From Armatimonadota bacterium (GTDB lineage: Bacteria > Armatimonadota > Chthonomonadetes > Chthonomonadales > CAJBBX01), in assembly GCA_026392115.1 (NCBI GenBank), contig JAPLCQ010000155.1, positions 1 through 64,000 of the forward strand: a DNA stretch of 64,000 nucleotides. Reading direction: 5' to 3'. Both the position numbers and the translations under genes were made by a program. A model generated the notes under the pieces. The model ran no database searches. It saw nothing but the letters and a program-made list of their open reading frames with translations, and was not told where the DNA came from. Below, piece after piece: positions 5,167 through 34,647 of the stretch. The first letter of the stretch is position 1; each line of letters starts with the position of its first letter.

Positions 5167-8100
5167 TTGGACATCCAACATGCCTCGAAGCGCATCCCTC
5201 ACGTCGTAGACATCCCGAATCTCATCGAGATTCAGCTTGACTCCTACCGCTGGTTCCTCGAAGAAGGCATGCCGGAGCTCTTTGAGAGCTTCTCGCCTAT
5301 CACTGACTTCACTGGCAGCACCTCGATCTCCCTCAAGGATTTCGTGCTGGGTGAGCCCAAGTACGCCATTGAGGACTGCCGCGACCGGGATATGACGTTT
5401 GAGGCCTCGATCAAGGCCAAAGTAGAACTGACGCAGGCTAACAAGGACGTAATCGAGTCCGAGGTCTATCTGGGCGACCTGCCCCTGATGACCGACAAGG
5501 GCACCTTCATCGTCAACGGCGCCGAGCGCGTGGTCGTCAGCCAGCTGGCTCGTTCGCCCGGCGTCTACTTCGAAGAGAACCTCAGTTTCTCTGGCCGAGT
5601 GCTCTACCAGGCCCGCATTATCCCCAACGAGGGCGCCTGGGTCGAGGTCGATACCGACACCCAGCGCGAGGACGTGCTCAACGTCCAGATCGGACAGGCC
5701 AAGAAGTTCGCGCTGACCACGCTGCTGCGCGCCCTGAGCGCGTTCCAGTCGGCCTGCGTGCCCATCGAGGTCACCATCCGCGCCGCCCGCCAGAACCTCT
5801 GGATTCGCCGCGCCCTTCCGGGCGGCGAGGCTGAGCCCGTTCGCGACTTCCTGCTGCGGATGACTCTGGATGTACCCGTGGCGGACCCCGACACCGGCGA
5901 AATCCTCGCCGATGCGGGCTCCCGCATCATCGACAGCATCGCCGAGCGCGACGCCGAAACGGCCAGACCCAATGGGGATGACCTCGTCTGGGTCGCCCTT
6001 GAGGAACTGGAGCAGAAGCTGGGTCCCGACGCCATCATTCGTCTGGCCTCGCCCTGCAACACGACGCCCGAGATCGTTCTGCTGTACGCCAAGCGGCAGA
6101 CCCTCGGTGAGGAAGCCGACGGCCTTGACGGGGCCGATGTTGAGGTCGACCCGGCCACGGGCGAAGTGCTCAATGCCTCCGCCGATGCTGCCCCGTTTGA
6201 TGAGGCCGAGGCGGCCGCGCAGGTGAGCGCCGGCGCCCTGACTGTGGAGAACCTGATCGGCAAGCGCTCCTCCATCGATGTCCTCGATGCGAAGAGCGGC
6301 AAGACGATCGTCCATGCCTACCAGAAGATGGACCGCGCCTCCGCCCTCGCCATCCTGAAGCAGGGCCTCACGGAGCTGACGGTCTACTCGCTCCACCGCT
6401 ACATCGAAGCCACCCTGGATCAGGAGACGGGCGTCGCAGACTCTCGCGACGCGCTGATCGACATCTACAAGAAGCTGCGGCCCGGCGATCCGGTGACCGA
6501 CGAGTCCGCCCGCAACCTCTTCCAGAATAACCTGTACGACCCGCGCCGGTACGATCTCGGCAAGGTCGGCCGGTTCAAGATGAACAAGAAACTCGAGCTC
6601 CCGGCGCATGAAGGCCATCTGGCCAGCAATGCCCGGACGCTGACGCGCGAGGACGTGGTCCACATCCTCCGGTATATCGTGAACCTCGATCAGGGGCACG
6701 GTACCACGGACGACATCGACCACCTGGAGAACAAGCGCATCCGCTCGGTGGGTGAGCTTCTGTACAGCCAGCTGCGCATGGGCTTCCTCCGCATGGAGAA
6801 GGTCGCCAAGGAGCGCATGACCTCGCTGCAGCCCGATCAGGATGCCCTGCCGCAGCTCGTGCTCTCCGTGAAGCCGATCTCCGCCGCCATCAAGAGCTTC
6901 TTCGGTTCGAGCCAGTTGAGCCAGTTCATGGACCAGACGAACCCGCTGGCCGAGCTCACCTCCAAGCGGCGCCTCTCGGCCCTTGGGCCCGGCGGTCTGT
7001 CGCGCCAGAGCGCCAAGCTCGAAGTCCGCGACGTCCACCATAGCCACTACGGCCGTATCTGTCCCATCGAGACGCCTGAAGGCCCGAACATCGGCCTGAT
7101 CGGCTCCATGGCGGTACATGCCCGCGTGGATAGCTACGGCTTCCTGGAGACGCCCTACCGCAAGGTCAAGGACGGCTGCGTCAGCAACGACATCATCTGG
7201 ATGACGGCCGACGAGGACCACCGCTATCGGATCGCTCCGGGCAACGAGCGGCTCGATGCCGACGGCCGGTTCGTTGACCGCCTCGGCGCGTCGCGTGTCG
7301 AGGTGCAGGTTCGGCACGAGGACCAGTACCCCGTGGTGCCCACGGACCAGGTCCAGTTCATGGACGTTTCGCCCATGCAGTTGGTCTCCGTCGCCACGGC
7401 CATGATCCCGTTCCTTGAGAATGACGACGCCAACCGCGCCCTCATGGGTTCGAACATGCAGCGCCAGGCGGTTCCGACGCTACGGCCTTCTGCGCCGCTG
7501 GTGAAGACGGGTGTGGAGCGCCGCGCCGCCAAGGACTCGGGCGCCGTTATCGTCGCACGACGCGGCGGCACGGTGAAGCTCGTCACGTCCCGCATGATCC
7601 AGGTGCAGAGCCGCACAGGCGAGGTCGATACATATCGGCTCGTCAACATGCTCCGGTCCAACCAGTCCACATGCATCACCCAGCGTCCGCTGGTCAACGC
7701 GGGCCAGCGTGTGCGGATGGGGCAGGTGTTGGCCGATGGGCCATGCACCGACCGCGGCGAACTGGCTCTGGGCCAGAACGTGCTGGTGGCCTTTATGCCG
7801 TGGGGCGGCTACAACTACGAGGACGCCATCCTCATATCGGAGCGCCTGGTGAAGGACGACGTCTTTACCAGCGTACACATCGAGAAGTACGAGAAGGAAG
7901 CTCGCGATACGAAGCTGGGCCCCGAAGAGATCACCCGGGACATCCCCAACGTCGGCGAGGACATGTTGAAGGACCTCGACGAGAACGGCATCATCCGGAT
8001 CGGCGCCGAAGTCCGCCCGGACGATATCCTCGTGGGCGAAGTGGCGCCCAAAGGCCAGGGCGAACTGACCGCTGAGGAGCGCCTCATCATCGCCATCTTC

Positions 8101-9543
8101 GGCAAGAAGGCCGAGGAGACACGCGACGTCTCGCTGCGCGTCCCGCACGGCGAGAAGGGCAAGGTCGTCGACGTCAAGGTCTTCAGCCGCTACAAGTACT
8201 CCTGCGTGCGCTGCAAGACCGAGTTCAACTTCAGCAAGCGGCCGGATCGCGCCCTTTGCGAGAAGTGCGACGGCGAGCTGGTCCGCGAGACGCCCGATGA
8301 GCTGAATGCCGGCGTGAACCAGATGGTACGCGTCCACATCGCCCAGAAGCGCAAGATCATGGAAGGCGACAAGATGGCCGGCCGGCACGGAAACAAGGGG
8401 GTCATCTCCAAGATCCTGCCGGAAGAGGACATGCCCTTCCTGCCGAACGGCACCCCGGTTGACATCGTGTTGAACCCGCTGGGCGTTCCGTCGCGTATGA
8501 ACATCGGCCAGATTCTGGAGACGCACCTCGGGCTGGCAGGGCGGTATCTTGGCTGCTCGTTCGTCAACCCGGCTTTTGAGGGCGCTACGGACTCCGACAT
8601 CCTCGGTGAGCTGGAGTTCGTCGCATCCGACATGCGGGCGAAGAGCCTCGACAGCTACGTGAACATCGAACTGGGCTTGGGGATCGACCTGGAAGAGGAG
8701 CCGTCTCCGAACGAGATCCGGGATGGCTACGCGACCATGGCGCCCAAGGAACGGCTCAAGGCCATCCAGGCGGACCTGCGGGCGGTCGCCGGCCGTCGGT
8801 TGGACCAGGTTCGCGAGGCCCTAATGTTGCGCGACGCCGCGCAGCTCGAGGTGCTCTCCCAGGCGGTGTGCGGCCCGGTCGTTCTTGAGGGCGAGCCGGC
8901 TGAGGACGCGGTCGTGCCTGAGGGCTACGACTACGATGGCCTCGTGGACCGGATTCGGGCCAACGCCTATCGGCGCGCCGGCCTGCAGCCGGACACGGGT
9001 AAGTGCAAGCTCCGCGACGGTCGCACCGGCGACGAGTTCGATCAGCCCGTCACCATCGGCCAGATATACATGCTGAAACTGGCCCACCTGGTGGACGACA
9101 AGATTCATGCACGGTCAACGGGTCCCTACTCGCTGGTCACGCAGCAGCCGCTTGGCGGTAAGGCCCAGTTTGGCGGCCAGCGTTTCGGCGAGATGGAGGT
9201 CTGGGCGCTGGAGGCCTACGGCGCGGCATACACGCTGCAGGAGATCCTGACGATCAAGTCGGACGACGTGCAGGGCCGCGTCAAGACCTATGAGGCCATC
9301 GTCAAGGGCGATACGATGTTGGAGCCGGGCGTGCCGGAGTCGTTCAAGATTCTGGTGAACGAGCTCCAGAGCCTCTGCCTCAAGGTCAGTGTCGAGGATG
9401 ACCGGGATCGCGAGATCGACCTGAAGGATCGCGACGACGACATCAACCCGAACGAGGACCCCATGGCCGCGGCGGCCAGACGGCGCGACCGCACTCTCAA
9501 TCGTATCGGTGCGGCGTTCGGTAGCGAGCCGGACGAGCTCTAG
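5167..9543 (+). CDS. rpoB: DNA-directed RNA polymerase subunit beta
   Basis: 1458 residues from a TTG start placed 7 bases after AGGAGGG. All core regions are present: [12 protein letters not shown] (rifampicin cluster I), [40 protein letters not shown], and the C-terminal clamp segment ending [13 protein letters not shown]. It is ~265 residues longer than the compact Firmicute form. Two reasons are visible. First, a lobe insertion at roughly residues 235-345 includes two DP-x-TGE-I/V-L strands at 240-246 and 328-335. Second, a four-cysteine zinc ribbon (Cys1013, 1016, 1031, 1034) lies between KVFSRYK and the [16 protein letters not shown] strand. The rifampicin-pocket His (E. coli 526) is Ser599. 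rplJ/rplL are not upstream. Confidence 0.98.
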
Positions 9544-31971: not shown

Positions 31972-32627
31972 CGACGCCTCCTCCAGAGCTCGCGGGCCAC
32001 GGCGACGAACTGCCTGCCCCGGTGCCGGAAACCCGCCAGGTCGCGCCCGGTGGCCCGGTGCGTCATCGTGACGGGCACCTCCAGCACCCTGTGCCCGGCA
32101 CGGGCGGCGTCGATGGTGAGCGCCACCTCCACGCCGAACCCGTCCGCAGTCTGGAGGGCGTCCCAGACCGGACGCCTCATGGCGCGTTGCCCCGACAGGG
32201 GACTGGTCATGGTGATGCCGGTGGCGCGCTGGATGCCCCACCGGGCCAACCGCACCACGAGCCCGAAGCCCGCTCCGGCGCCACGCTGACCTGCGAACGC
32301 GGCGATGGTCATGTCCGCCTCTCCGCGCGTCACGGGGGCGATCAGAAGGCCGGCCTGGGCCGCGGTGGCGCCCAGGTCGGCGTCCACCATGGCGATGATC
32401 TCGCCCCGGCAGGCGCGGATGCCCTCGGCCAGCGCCGCGGCCTTGCCCAGGTTGCGGGGCATGTCGAGTACGCGCGCGCCTGAGCGGGCGGCTACGGCGG
32501 AGGTGTCGTCGGAGGAGCCGTCGTTCACGACCAGCACCTCGTCCACGCCGTCCAGGGCCACGAGCGCGGCCACGGTCTCGGAGATGCGCACCTCCTCGTT
32601 GTAGGCGGGCACAATAATCGAGGTCAT
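31959..32627 (-). CDS. Family 2 glycosyltransferase
   Basis: 222 residues, ATG overlapping the steB stop (ATGA, 32624-32627). GT-A fold marks are clear: TSIIVPAYNEEVRISETV at the N-terminus, VLVVNDGSSDDTS, and the metal-binding AMVDADLGA. The remainder (SPLSGQRAMRRPVW, then LEVPVTMTHRATGRDLAGFR) matches dolichyl-phosphate-mannose-synthase-like soluble GT2 enzymes without a membrane domain. It would transfer a sugar from a nucleotide donor, perhaps to polyprenyl phosphate or an envelope glycan, in partnership with the membrane transferase encoded next. The sugar cannot be deduced. Confidence 0.88.
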   Translation of the reverse strand: MTSIIVPAYNEEVRISETVAALVALDGVDEVLVVNDGSSDDTSAVAARSGARVLDMPRNLGKAAALAEGIRACRGEIIAMVDADLGATAAQAGLLIAPVTRGEADMTIAAFAGQRGAGAGFGLVVRLARWGIQRATGITMTSPLSGQRAMRRPVWDALQTADGFGVEVALTIDAARAGHRVLEVPVTMTHRATGRDLAGFRHRGRQFVAVARELWRRRRCLL

Positions 32628-33481
32628 CGCTCCGTCGGGAGCGCCGGCAGGAGGCCGCTGGTGGCCGTGCGGCGCACCCCGTAGTTGCCGCGGCCCTCGC
32701 GCAGCGCCAGGGCAAGCGCCATTGCGCCGATCTCGGTCTCGACGTTGTCAACGGTTGTGATCGGTACGCCGGCGAAGCGGTCCATGTAGGAGATGGCCGC
32801 CGTGGAGGGTTCCACAAGGGCGACATCGACCGGGAAGGTCCGGAGCTGGGTTACAAGCGGCAGGTCCAGCGTGTCTGCGCGGCTACCCGCATCCAGCGAG
32901 GCGCCCGCCACCACCACCACGGCATCCACGCGACCATCGAAGGCGCCGGAGTGTTCCGTTAGCCCGGCATCCCGGAGGACGGATAGGTCCATATCCTGGG
33001 CTCCAATGGCCAGCGATGCCGCCAGGATGCGGAAGACGCCCGCATTGCCATCGGGGAGGCTGGGGTGCCCTGCGCGTAGTGACGCGAGCACATTGCCGTG
33101 AACCAGCTCGAGCTTGCGGCTGAAGCCGGCATCAGTCACCATGGTGCGCACCACGACGGCGCCCGCGTCGAGCAGCGCCGTCTCGACGCGCTGGGTGGCT
33201 TCGTCGTAGTCGCCGGTCTGCACAATCGCCACGCGGCGCCCGGCCAGGGCGTGGCGCAGCACGCGGGGGCGCACCGCCGCTATGGCTGCCGAGTAGCGCT
33301 GGTTGTCCTGCCGGAGCGGCGCGACCTCCTCGGTGAACCGGCTGTTGAGGTTTCGAAGCTGGCCGTTGAGGCCCGCCACGATGGCGCTGGGCAGGAACGA
33401 TCCGCCGATGATCATCCCCACGCCAAGGCTGAGGAAGATGGCGACGACGGTGATGAAATGGTACCGGAAGCCGGGTGACAC
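32624..33481 (-). CDS. SteB/MctB-like protein ('copper transporter' family)
   Basis: 285 residues from a GTG at 33481 with GGAGGG seven bases upstream. It opens with the family N-terminus: FRYHFITVVAIFLSLGVGMI as a membrane helix, followed by a heptad-rich helix (NGQLRNLNSRFTEEVAPLRQ) and a Rossmann-like domain that begins LAGRRVAIVQTG. The family (PF11382) was named after mycobacterial MctB, a copper-related outer-envelope protein. In Corynebacterium the same protein (SteB) works with SteA at the division site. Position directly after steA supports SteB as the better label here. Copper binding is not evident in the sequence. Confidence 0.82.
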   Translation of the reverse strand: MSPGFRYHFITVVAIFLSLGVGMIIGGSFLPSAIVAGLNGQLRNLNSRFTEEVAPLRQDNQRYSAAIAAVRPRVLRHALAGRRVAIVQTGDYDEATQRVETALLDAGAVVVRTMVTDAGFSRKLELVHGNVLASLRAGHPSLPDGNAGVFRILAASLAIGAQDMDLSVLRDAGLTEHSGAFDGRVDAVVVVAGASLDAGSRADTLDLPLVTQLRTFPVDVALVEPSTAAISYMDRFAGVPITTVDNVETEIGAMALALALREGRGNYGVRRTATSGLLPALPTER

Positions 33482-33495
33482 GGTATGGCCCTCCG

Positions 33496-34647
33496 TCAGG
33501 GCAGGCCCAGGCTGGATCGCAGCTGGAGCCGGGTCGCGCTGAGCACCGTTCGGATCAGCGGGGATTGGAGCGCCAGGACGCAGAGCGGGAAGAGCGCCGC
33601 GGCTACCAAGAGCAGGATTTCCAGGGTTGCGGGGCGTGACCGGGCCGACCAGAGCCTCCCTAGTCCCTTGGCGTCTACGAGCTTGGATCCGATGCGCAGG
33701 CGCACCAAGAACGTGCTGGCCATGCCCCCCCGGCCCTTGTCGAGGAAGTCCTCCAGCGAAAAATGGGTGCCCACGGCCACGATCAGCGACGCTCCCCGTT
33801 GGTCGGCGATCAACATGGCGGCGTCCTCGCTGGTGCCCGGTACCGGGAAGACCTTTGCTGAGAGACCCAGCTTTTCGATACGGGCCAGTCCCGGCGCCTC
33901 ACGACCGCCCTTGGCGTAGGCGTGCACGACCAACTCGGCTCCGCTGCGCAAGGACGCGTCGGAGACGCTGTCCATGTCGCCCACGATGATGTGGGGCCTC
34001 AGCCCGACCTCGGCCAGCGCGTCTGCGCCGCCGTCTACTCAGATGAGGACGGGCCGAACCTCCAGGAGGTAGTCCTCGATGGCGCGCAGGTCATCTTTGA
34101 AGCCCGGGCCCCGGGTGACTACCAGGACATGCCGCCCGGCGATCTTCGTGTCGATGGCCGGCGCCGATACCGGGTCAAGCAGCAGGCCGCGCTCCTCGGA
34201 GATGTACTGCAGCGTGTTGCGCGCGAAGGCGTCTAGTTCGGCCCCTATGTTGCGGCGGGCGGCCTCCATGCTCTCGCCGATGGACTCAAGGCTCAGCGGG
34301 GTGCCGGTGGCCTCAAGCTCGCCGACCCGAATCCGGTCGCCGTCCAGTGTGGCCATCTGGCCGCGGTGCTGCAGGGCGGCCTCGAAGAAGGCATCGCCAA
34401 CGTGGTCCAGAATAGGTACTTGCGCCTCTGCGAGAAGGCTGGGGCCGACGTTGGGGTATCTGCCGGAGATCGATGGAGCGGCGTTGACAACCGCCGCCAC
34501 GCCGGCATCCAGGAGCGACTGAGCGGCCACGGCGTCCAGGTCGGTATGGTGGATGAGCGCGATGTCGCCCGCCGCCAGCGAACCGACCAGACGCTTGGTC
34601 CGGCGATCAGCCCATATGCGGCCCCTAATGGGATGTGTGTTGCCCAC
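33496..34647 (-). pseudogene. steA: steA-like gene interrupted by one in-frame TGA
   Basis: Both halves are in one reading frame: codons 1-202 from a GTG at 34647, a TGA at 34041-34039, then codons 204-383 to the stop at 33496. The protein matches SteA along its whole length: RRTKRLVGSLAAGDIALI, NAAPSISGRYPN, GRHVLVVTRGPGF, then after the stop VDGGADAL, GDMDSVSD, GTSEDAAMLIADQRGASLIV, and two helices at the C-terminus. Related proteins have Gly where the TGA stands, so one base change (GGA to TGA) explains it. It may be a real nonsense mutation, an assembly error, or readthrough. SteA is a thiamine-pyrophosphokinase-like division-site protein in Corynebacterium. Internal restart from GTG 33984 would give only the C-terminal half. 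Confidence 0.8.

Follow-up and report, generated by a model that had tools for sequence, protein, structure and literature searches.

The steA locus and its internal TGA

The window, a 64-kb stretch of DNA, carries on its minus strand a steA reading frame (33496 to 34647) that runs in one frame from a GTG start codon (34647) to a terminal TGA (33498–33496). Translation yields exactly one internal stop, a TGA at 34041–34039, which is codon 203 of the 383-codon gene. The 202 amino acids encoded before this stop (34042 to 34647, minus strand) constitute the predicted truncated product and encompass the N-terminal domain, the linker, and the beginning of the TPK-like domain. The 180 amino acids encoded after it (33499 to 34038, minus strand) are conserved without decay, and include the VDGGADAL and GDMDSV motifs, the remaining TPK-like domain, and the C-terminal membrane helix region. 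The partner gene steB/mctB (32624 to 33481, minus strand; Pfam PF11382, MctB, E 3.3e-36) lies 14 bases past steA and is intact, with no lesion.

The profile NF040608 (putative cytokinetic ring protein SteA; cut-off 150 bits) matches residues 7 to 202 of the pre-stop part over profile positions 1 to 195 (198.3 bits), and matches the post-stop 180 residues over profile positions 197 to 367 (225.6 bits). Each half passes the cut-off on its own. Because the halves are in register, the sole profile column that is missing is the one occupied by the TGA codon. The Pfam models SteA-like_C and TPK_catalytic gave weak matches, slightly below their cut-offs, to the post-stop part. Thus, the proposal of a first-pass annotation that a single in-frame TGA interrupts an otherwise intact steA is borne out. 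The gene resembles SteA as represented by NF040608 and the SteA-like crystal structures 9hmy and 9hmz in the register of its halves, its operon with steB/mctB, and its C-terminal membrane helix region. It differs from this family in that the expected full-length, uninterrupted frame is absent, the TGA standing at codon 203.

The frame is also supported by comparison with two members of the same genus. The entire 64 kb is collinear, in one piece, with congener G001 (86.8% identity), and 39.9 kb is covered by congener G002 (85.0% identity). Over the whole steA frame, substitutions at codon positions 1, 2, and 3 number 18, 8, and 115 relative to G001 and 22, 6, and 127 relative to G002. This concentration at third positions reflects more than a chance agreement of frames.

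Among 40 window genes that were checked, for which one listed coordinate ended at a non-stop codon, steA alone contains an internal stop. Further stops were flagged in the comparison with the congeners, and by inspection these lie within ORF calls that overlap opposite-strand genes, within extensions near gene starts, or within intergenic DNA that aligns poorly. The source genome, assembled in 181 contigs with 98.64% completeness and 1.53% contamination, contains no second copy of steA that would excuse the loss of this one. Two more private changes, both Arg to Leu, affect steA codons 195 and 342; at each of these positions Arg is encoded in the two congeners and in the outgroup (G004).

Codon 203 among relatives and the age of the stop

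A survey of 65 loci produced 60 that align across codon 203 and five without alignment there. One of the 60 is the window itself and seven duplicate other entries, leaving 52 distinct relatives. The residue at this position is Gly in 34 of these and Ala in the other 18, and none has a stop at this codon. The family residue had been given as Gly, which is right in substance, with Ala accounting for the rest. The companion suggestion, that a single change from GGA to TGA created the stop, requires an ancestral GGA; of the two congeners, only one carries GGA, the other having GGG.

Within the order, a steA match is present in 29 of 31 genomes, and in all 24 that are near-complete. The other 27 genomes whose match spans the codon, a count that leaves out the window's own genome and one fragment that falls short of the codon, also lack the stop. 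The question of whether relatives share the TGA, raised by the first-pass annotation, is answered in the negative for the relatives surveyed. No other genome of this species turned up; the genus comprises three genomes, including the window's own, and the catalogue scan used may omit the record of the window itself. In a wider set of relatives from across the phylum, which includes 61 near-complete genomes, steA is matched in 45 of these and unmatched in 16, so the gene can disappear over longer evolutionary times.

Private changes were counted at codons where the window departs from a sequence common to both congeners. These comprise 17 synonymous and three nonsynonymous codons before the stop, and 31 synonymous and two nonsynonymous codons after it. 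When residues are compared as amino acids, so that the DNA of the congeners may differ, four private residues precede the stop and three follow it. Two of the latter three, residues 231 and 263, are shared with the outgroup (G004) and could represent ancestral states. Given the third-position mutation spectrum, about 75 nonsynonymous changes would accompany 31 synonymous ones after the stop if the whole branch had been neutral. The share of the window's branch that was neutral is at most 2.5% (95%, two changes, constrained rate from the congeners) or, in the loosest setting, at most 13.4% (99%, three changes, no constrained changes). Judged from these substitutions, the post-stop part, if it is untranslated, would have been so for at most about 2.5 to 13.4% of the branch.

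An old pseudogene was rejected, given the 31 versus two private codons and the lack of any frameshift, further lesion, or relaxed constraint after the stop. The lack of decay implies instead one of three things: a young stop, a stop that is not real, or one past which translation continues. Together with the lack of the stop in relatives, it supports the three-way choice originally offered between a recent event, an error, and functional readthrough.

The same genome contains another gene with an internal TGA, which we take to be phage-terminase-like (L207, contig C73, about 5182–6635, minus strand). A by-eye reading of the ORF listing indicates that its frame also shifts upstream, whereas steA carries a single lesion; L207 seems to be a decayed mobile-element remnant. 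A presumably reverse-transcriptase-like remnant (L184, contig C50, about 8855–9501, minus strand) is cut at 9066 by a TAG, with short GC-rich repeats nearby.

A proposed recent nonsense allele

The best reading, to which we assign a probability of about 0.5, is that steA carries a young, private, and isolated nonsense change. It is favored by the conservation and collinearity of the gene apart from this one lesion, by the absence of the stop from every relative in which the codon could be read, by the ratio of private codons after the stop, and by the presence of RF2 (495.8 bits versus a cut-off of 370). That steA is dispensable in some lineages, as the near-complete genomes of the phylum-wide set without a match indicate, is also consistent with this reading. 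The change would have arisen very recently in the source strain or population of the assembly. The TGA would be taken as a normal stop by RF2, giving a 202-residue piece that ends early in the dimerization/nucleotide-pocket domain and has no membrane anchor.

Related proteins suggest what such a truncation would do. In the structural description of Mycobacterium tuberculosis SteA (PMC12977500), an N-terminal domain and a linker helix are followed by a C-terminal domain (161–342) and then a membrane helix, and the 161–342 domain forms a dimer and carries a putative phosphonucleotide (ligand) pocket. In the experiments described for Corynebacterium glutamicum (PMC6705760), function was restored by full-length SteA only, and a membrane-less version was diffuse and inactive. 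By analogy with Corynebacterium, the truncated SteA should be nonfunctional; having neither most of the C-terminal domain nor the anchor, the 202-residue product should be inactive. Within this reading, the stop, its absence from relatives, its status as the sole lesion, the lack of decay behind it, and the presence of RF2 are observed, whereas a genuine base in the cells, efficient termination at it, and loss of function are inferred.

Some observations weigh against a recent nonsense allele. The presence of steA in every near-complete genome of the order suggests that its loss should be costly here, which favors residual readthrough, a rare variant among strains, or an error. The fragmented state of the assembly and the fact that its nearest kin are metagenome assemblies also count against the nonsense allele.

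Alternative readings and the meaning of the stop

The main rival to a recent nonsense allele is a wrong consensus base, wherein the cells keep a sense codon and an intact steA, and the TGA derives from an error of metagenome assembly caused by low coverage, a strain mixture, or base calling. We regard this explanation as a distinct possibility. In its favor, the change is single and private and is followed by no decay, the gene is kept by 24 of 24 near-complete genomes of its order, and the assembly is fragmented into 181 contigs. Against it, there is no general sign of errors across the window, although the test used would miss a handful. Specifically, private changes at codon positions 1 and 2 make up 713 of 2110 in the window (34%), compared with 684 of 2072 in G001 (33%) and 869 of 2437 in G002 (36%), with slight noise in all three taxa from three of 31 gene coordinates that are not multiples of three. 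Well-supported window genes also show no net frameshift by inspection. An oxidation-type artifact in particular was rejected, as C>A/G>T changes at positions 1 and 2 are not in excess (90 of 301 in the window versus 82 of 281 and 121 of 338 in the congeners).

Functional readthrough is possible but unsupported, and we consider it unlikely. Here UGA 203 would be partly decoded by near-cognate misreading, for example by tRNA-Trp, such that a little full-length SteA is made and the stop lowers its level. The strong constraint that persists past the stop would fit this proposal, but it is explained equally well by recency. A precedent exists in the conserved in-frame stops under purifying selection reported in bacteria by Belinky et al. 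(2021; PMC7918605). Like the cases described there, the steA stop lies in frame in a gene with low dN/dS. The large-scale set described in that report, however, includes only stops common to at least two species, and a substantial share of its raw cases is expected to be artifactual (PMC7918605), whereas the steA stop is private to one assembly: sharing between species, the mark of a conserved readthrough stop, was seen with none of the 52 distinct relatives. In addition, no suppressor tRNA was found, and the region after the TGA lacks unusual structure (z −0.15, compared with +0.20 and −0.50 for the congeners). This position, where the VDGG motif begins, is occupied only by Gly or Ala across the 52 relatives, which further suggests that a bulky residue would fit poorly. 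A more specific version, in which the TGA is real and fixed and low UGA readthrough supplies full-length SteA, the stop serving as a dial that lowers the cell-separation activity of the lineage, is in our view improbable.

A split gene, in which the ribosome restarts past the TGA and the two pieces together form SteA, is very improbable. In-frame start codons do exist past the stop (GTG at 33984 and ATG at 33975), but neither is preceded by a Shine-Dalgarno-like site at the usual distance, the nearest core lying 16 bases before the GTG and none before the ATG. Moreover, a restart there would lose the VDGGADAL motif that the family keeps, and the frame is free of internal stops in every relative examined for this.

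Recoding of the UGA, either as selenocysteine or as Gly, is hardly credible: RF2 is present, no UCA anticodon exists among the 46 tRNAs, SelB falls below its cut-off, and TGA ends other genes, all of which disfavor both forms. In Gracilibacteria/SR1, UGA encodes Gly (genetic code 25), and the site is indeed Gly in most relatives. Code 25 was nonetheless rejected, as RF2 is kept, no tRNA-Gly(UCA) was found (the Gly anticodons identified are CCC, GCC, and TCC), and TGA terminates 17 of 40 window genes, steA included (TAG, 18; TAA, 4). The earlier judgment that reassignment is not suggested is upheld by the same evidence. For selenocysteine, one match to the tRNA-Sec model was obtained (48.1 bits versus a cut-off of 47), but ARAGORN calls this locus tRNA-Ser(CGA) and the model fires in 14 of 14 control genomes. 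The best SelB match (161.5 bits) is below the cut-off of 242.25, which is exceeded in two of 14 control genomes. The first-pass annotation had also proposed looking for a SECIS-like element just downstream, and none was evident: the predicted fold of the 70 nt that begin at the TGA is not better than that of shuffled sequences (z −0.15). A selenoprotein was rejected on these grounds and because no tRNA with a UCA anticodon was found.

The tRNA search identified 43 tRNAs with Rfam and, with ARAGORN on the extracted loci, 46 tRNA sequences and a tmRNA. tRNA-Ile(GAU) and tRNA-Ala(UGC) are absent among the 46; the genes for these are often located within rRNA operons, which metagenome bins often miss. 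A survey by codon statistics of 1,610,109 of the 5,720,518 bases reduced 5077 raw candidates to 68 and then to eight, and these interruption candidates (four TGA and four TAG in 1.61 Mb) reveal no excess of in-frame TGA. By eye, one of the eight, triosephosphate-isomerase-like, looks like the normal end of a gene, and two more lie in mobile-element remnants. This survey is a rough guide only, because its filter also discards real interruptions that have a start codon near the stop.

A single in-frame stop with intact flanks in one metagenome-type assembly has the look of either an erroneous base or a mutation of recent date and, alone, is no evidence of recoding. If the allele is real and fixed, it would represent a natural loss of steA in an order where all 24 near-complete genomes checked have the gene.
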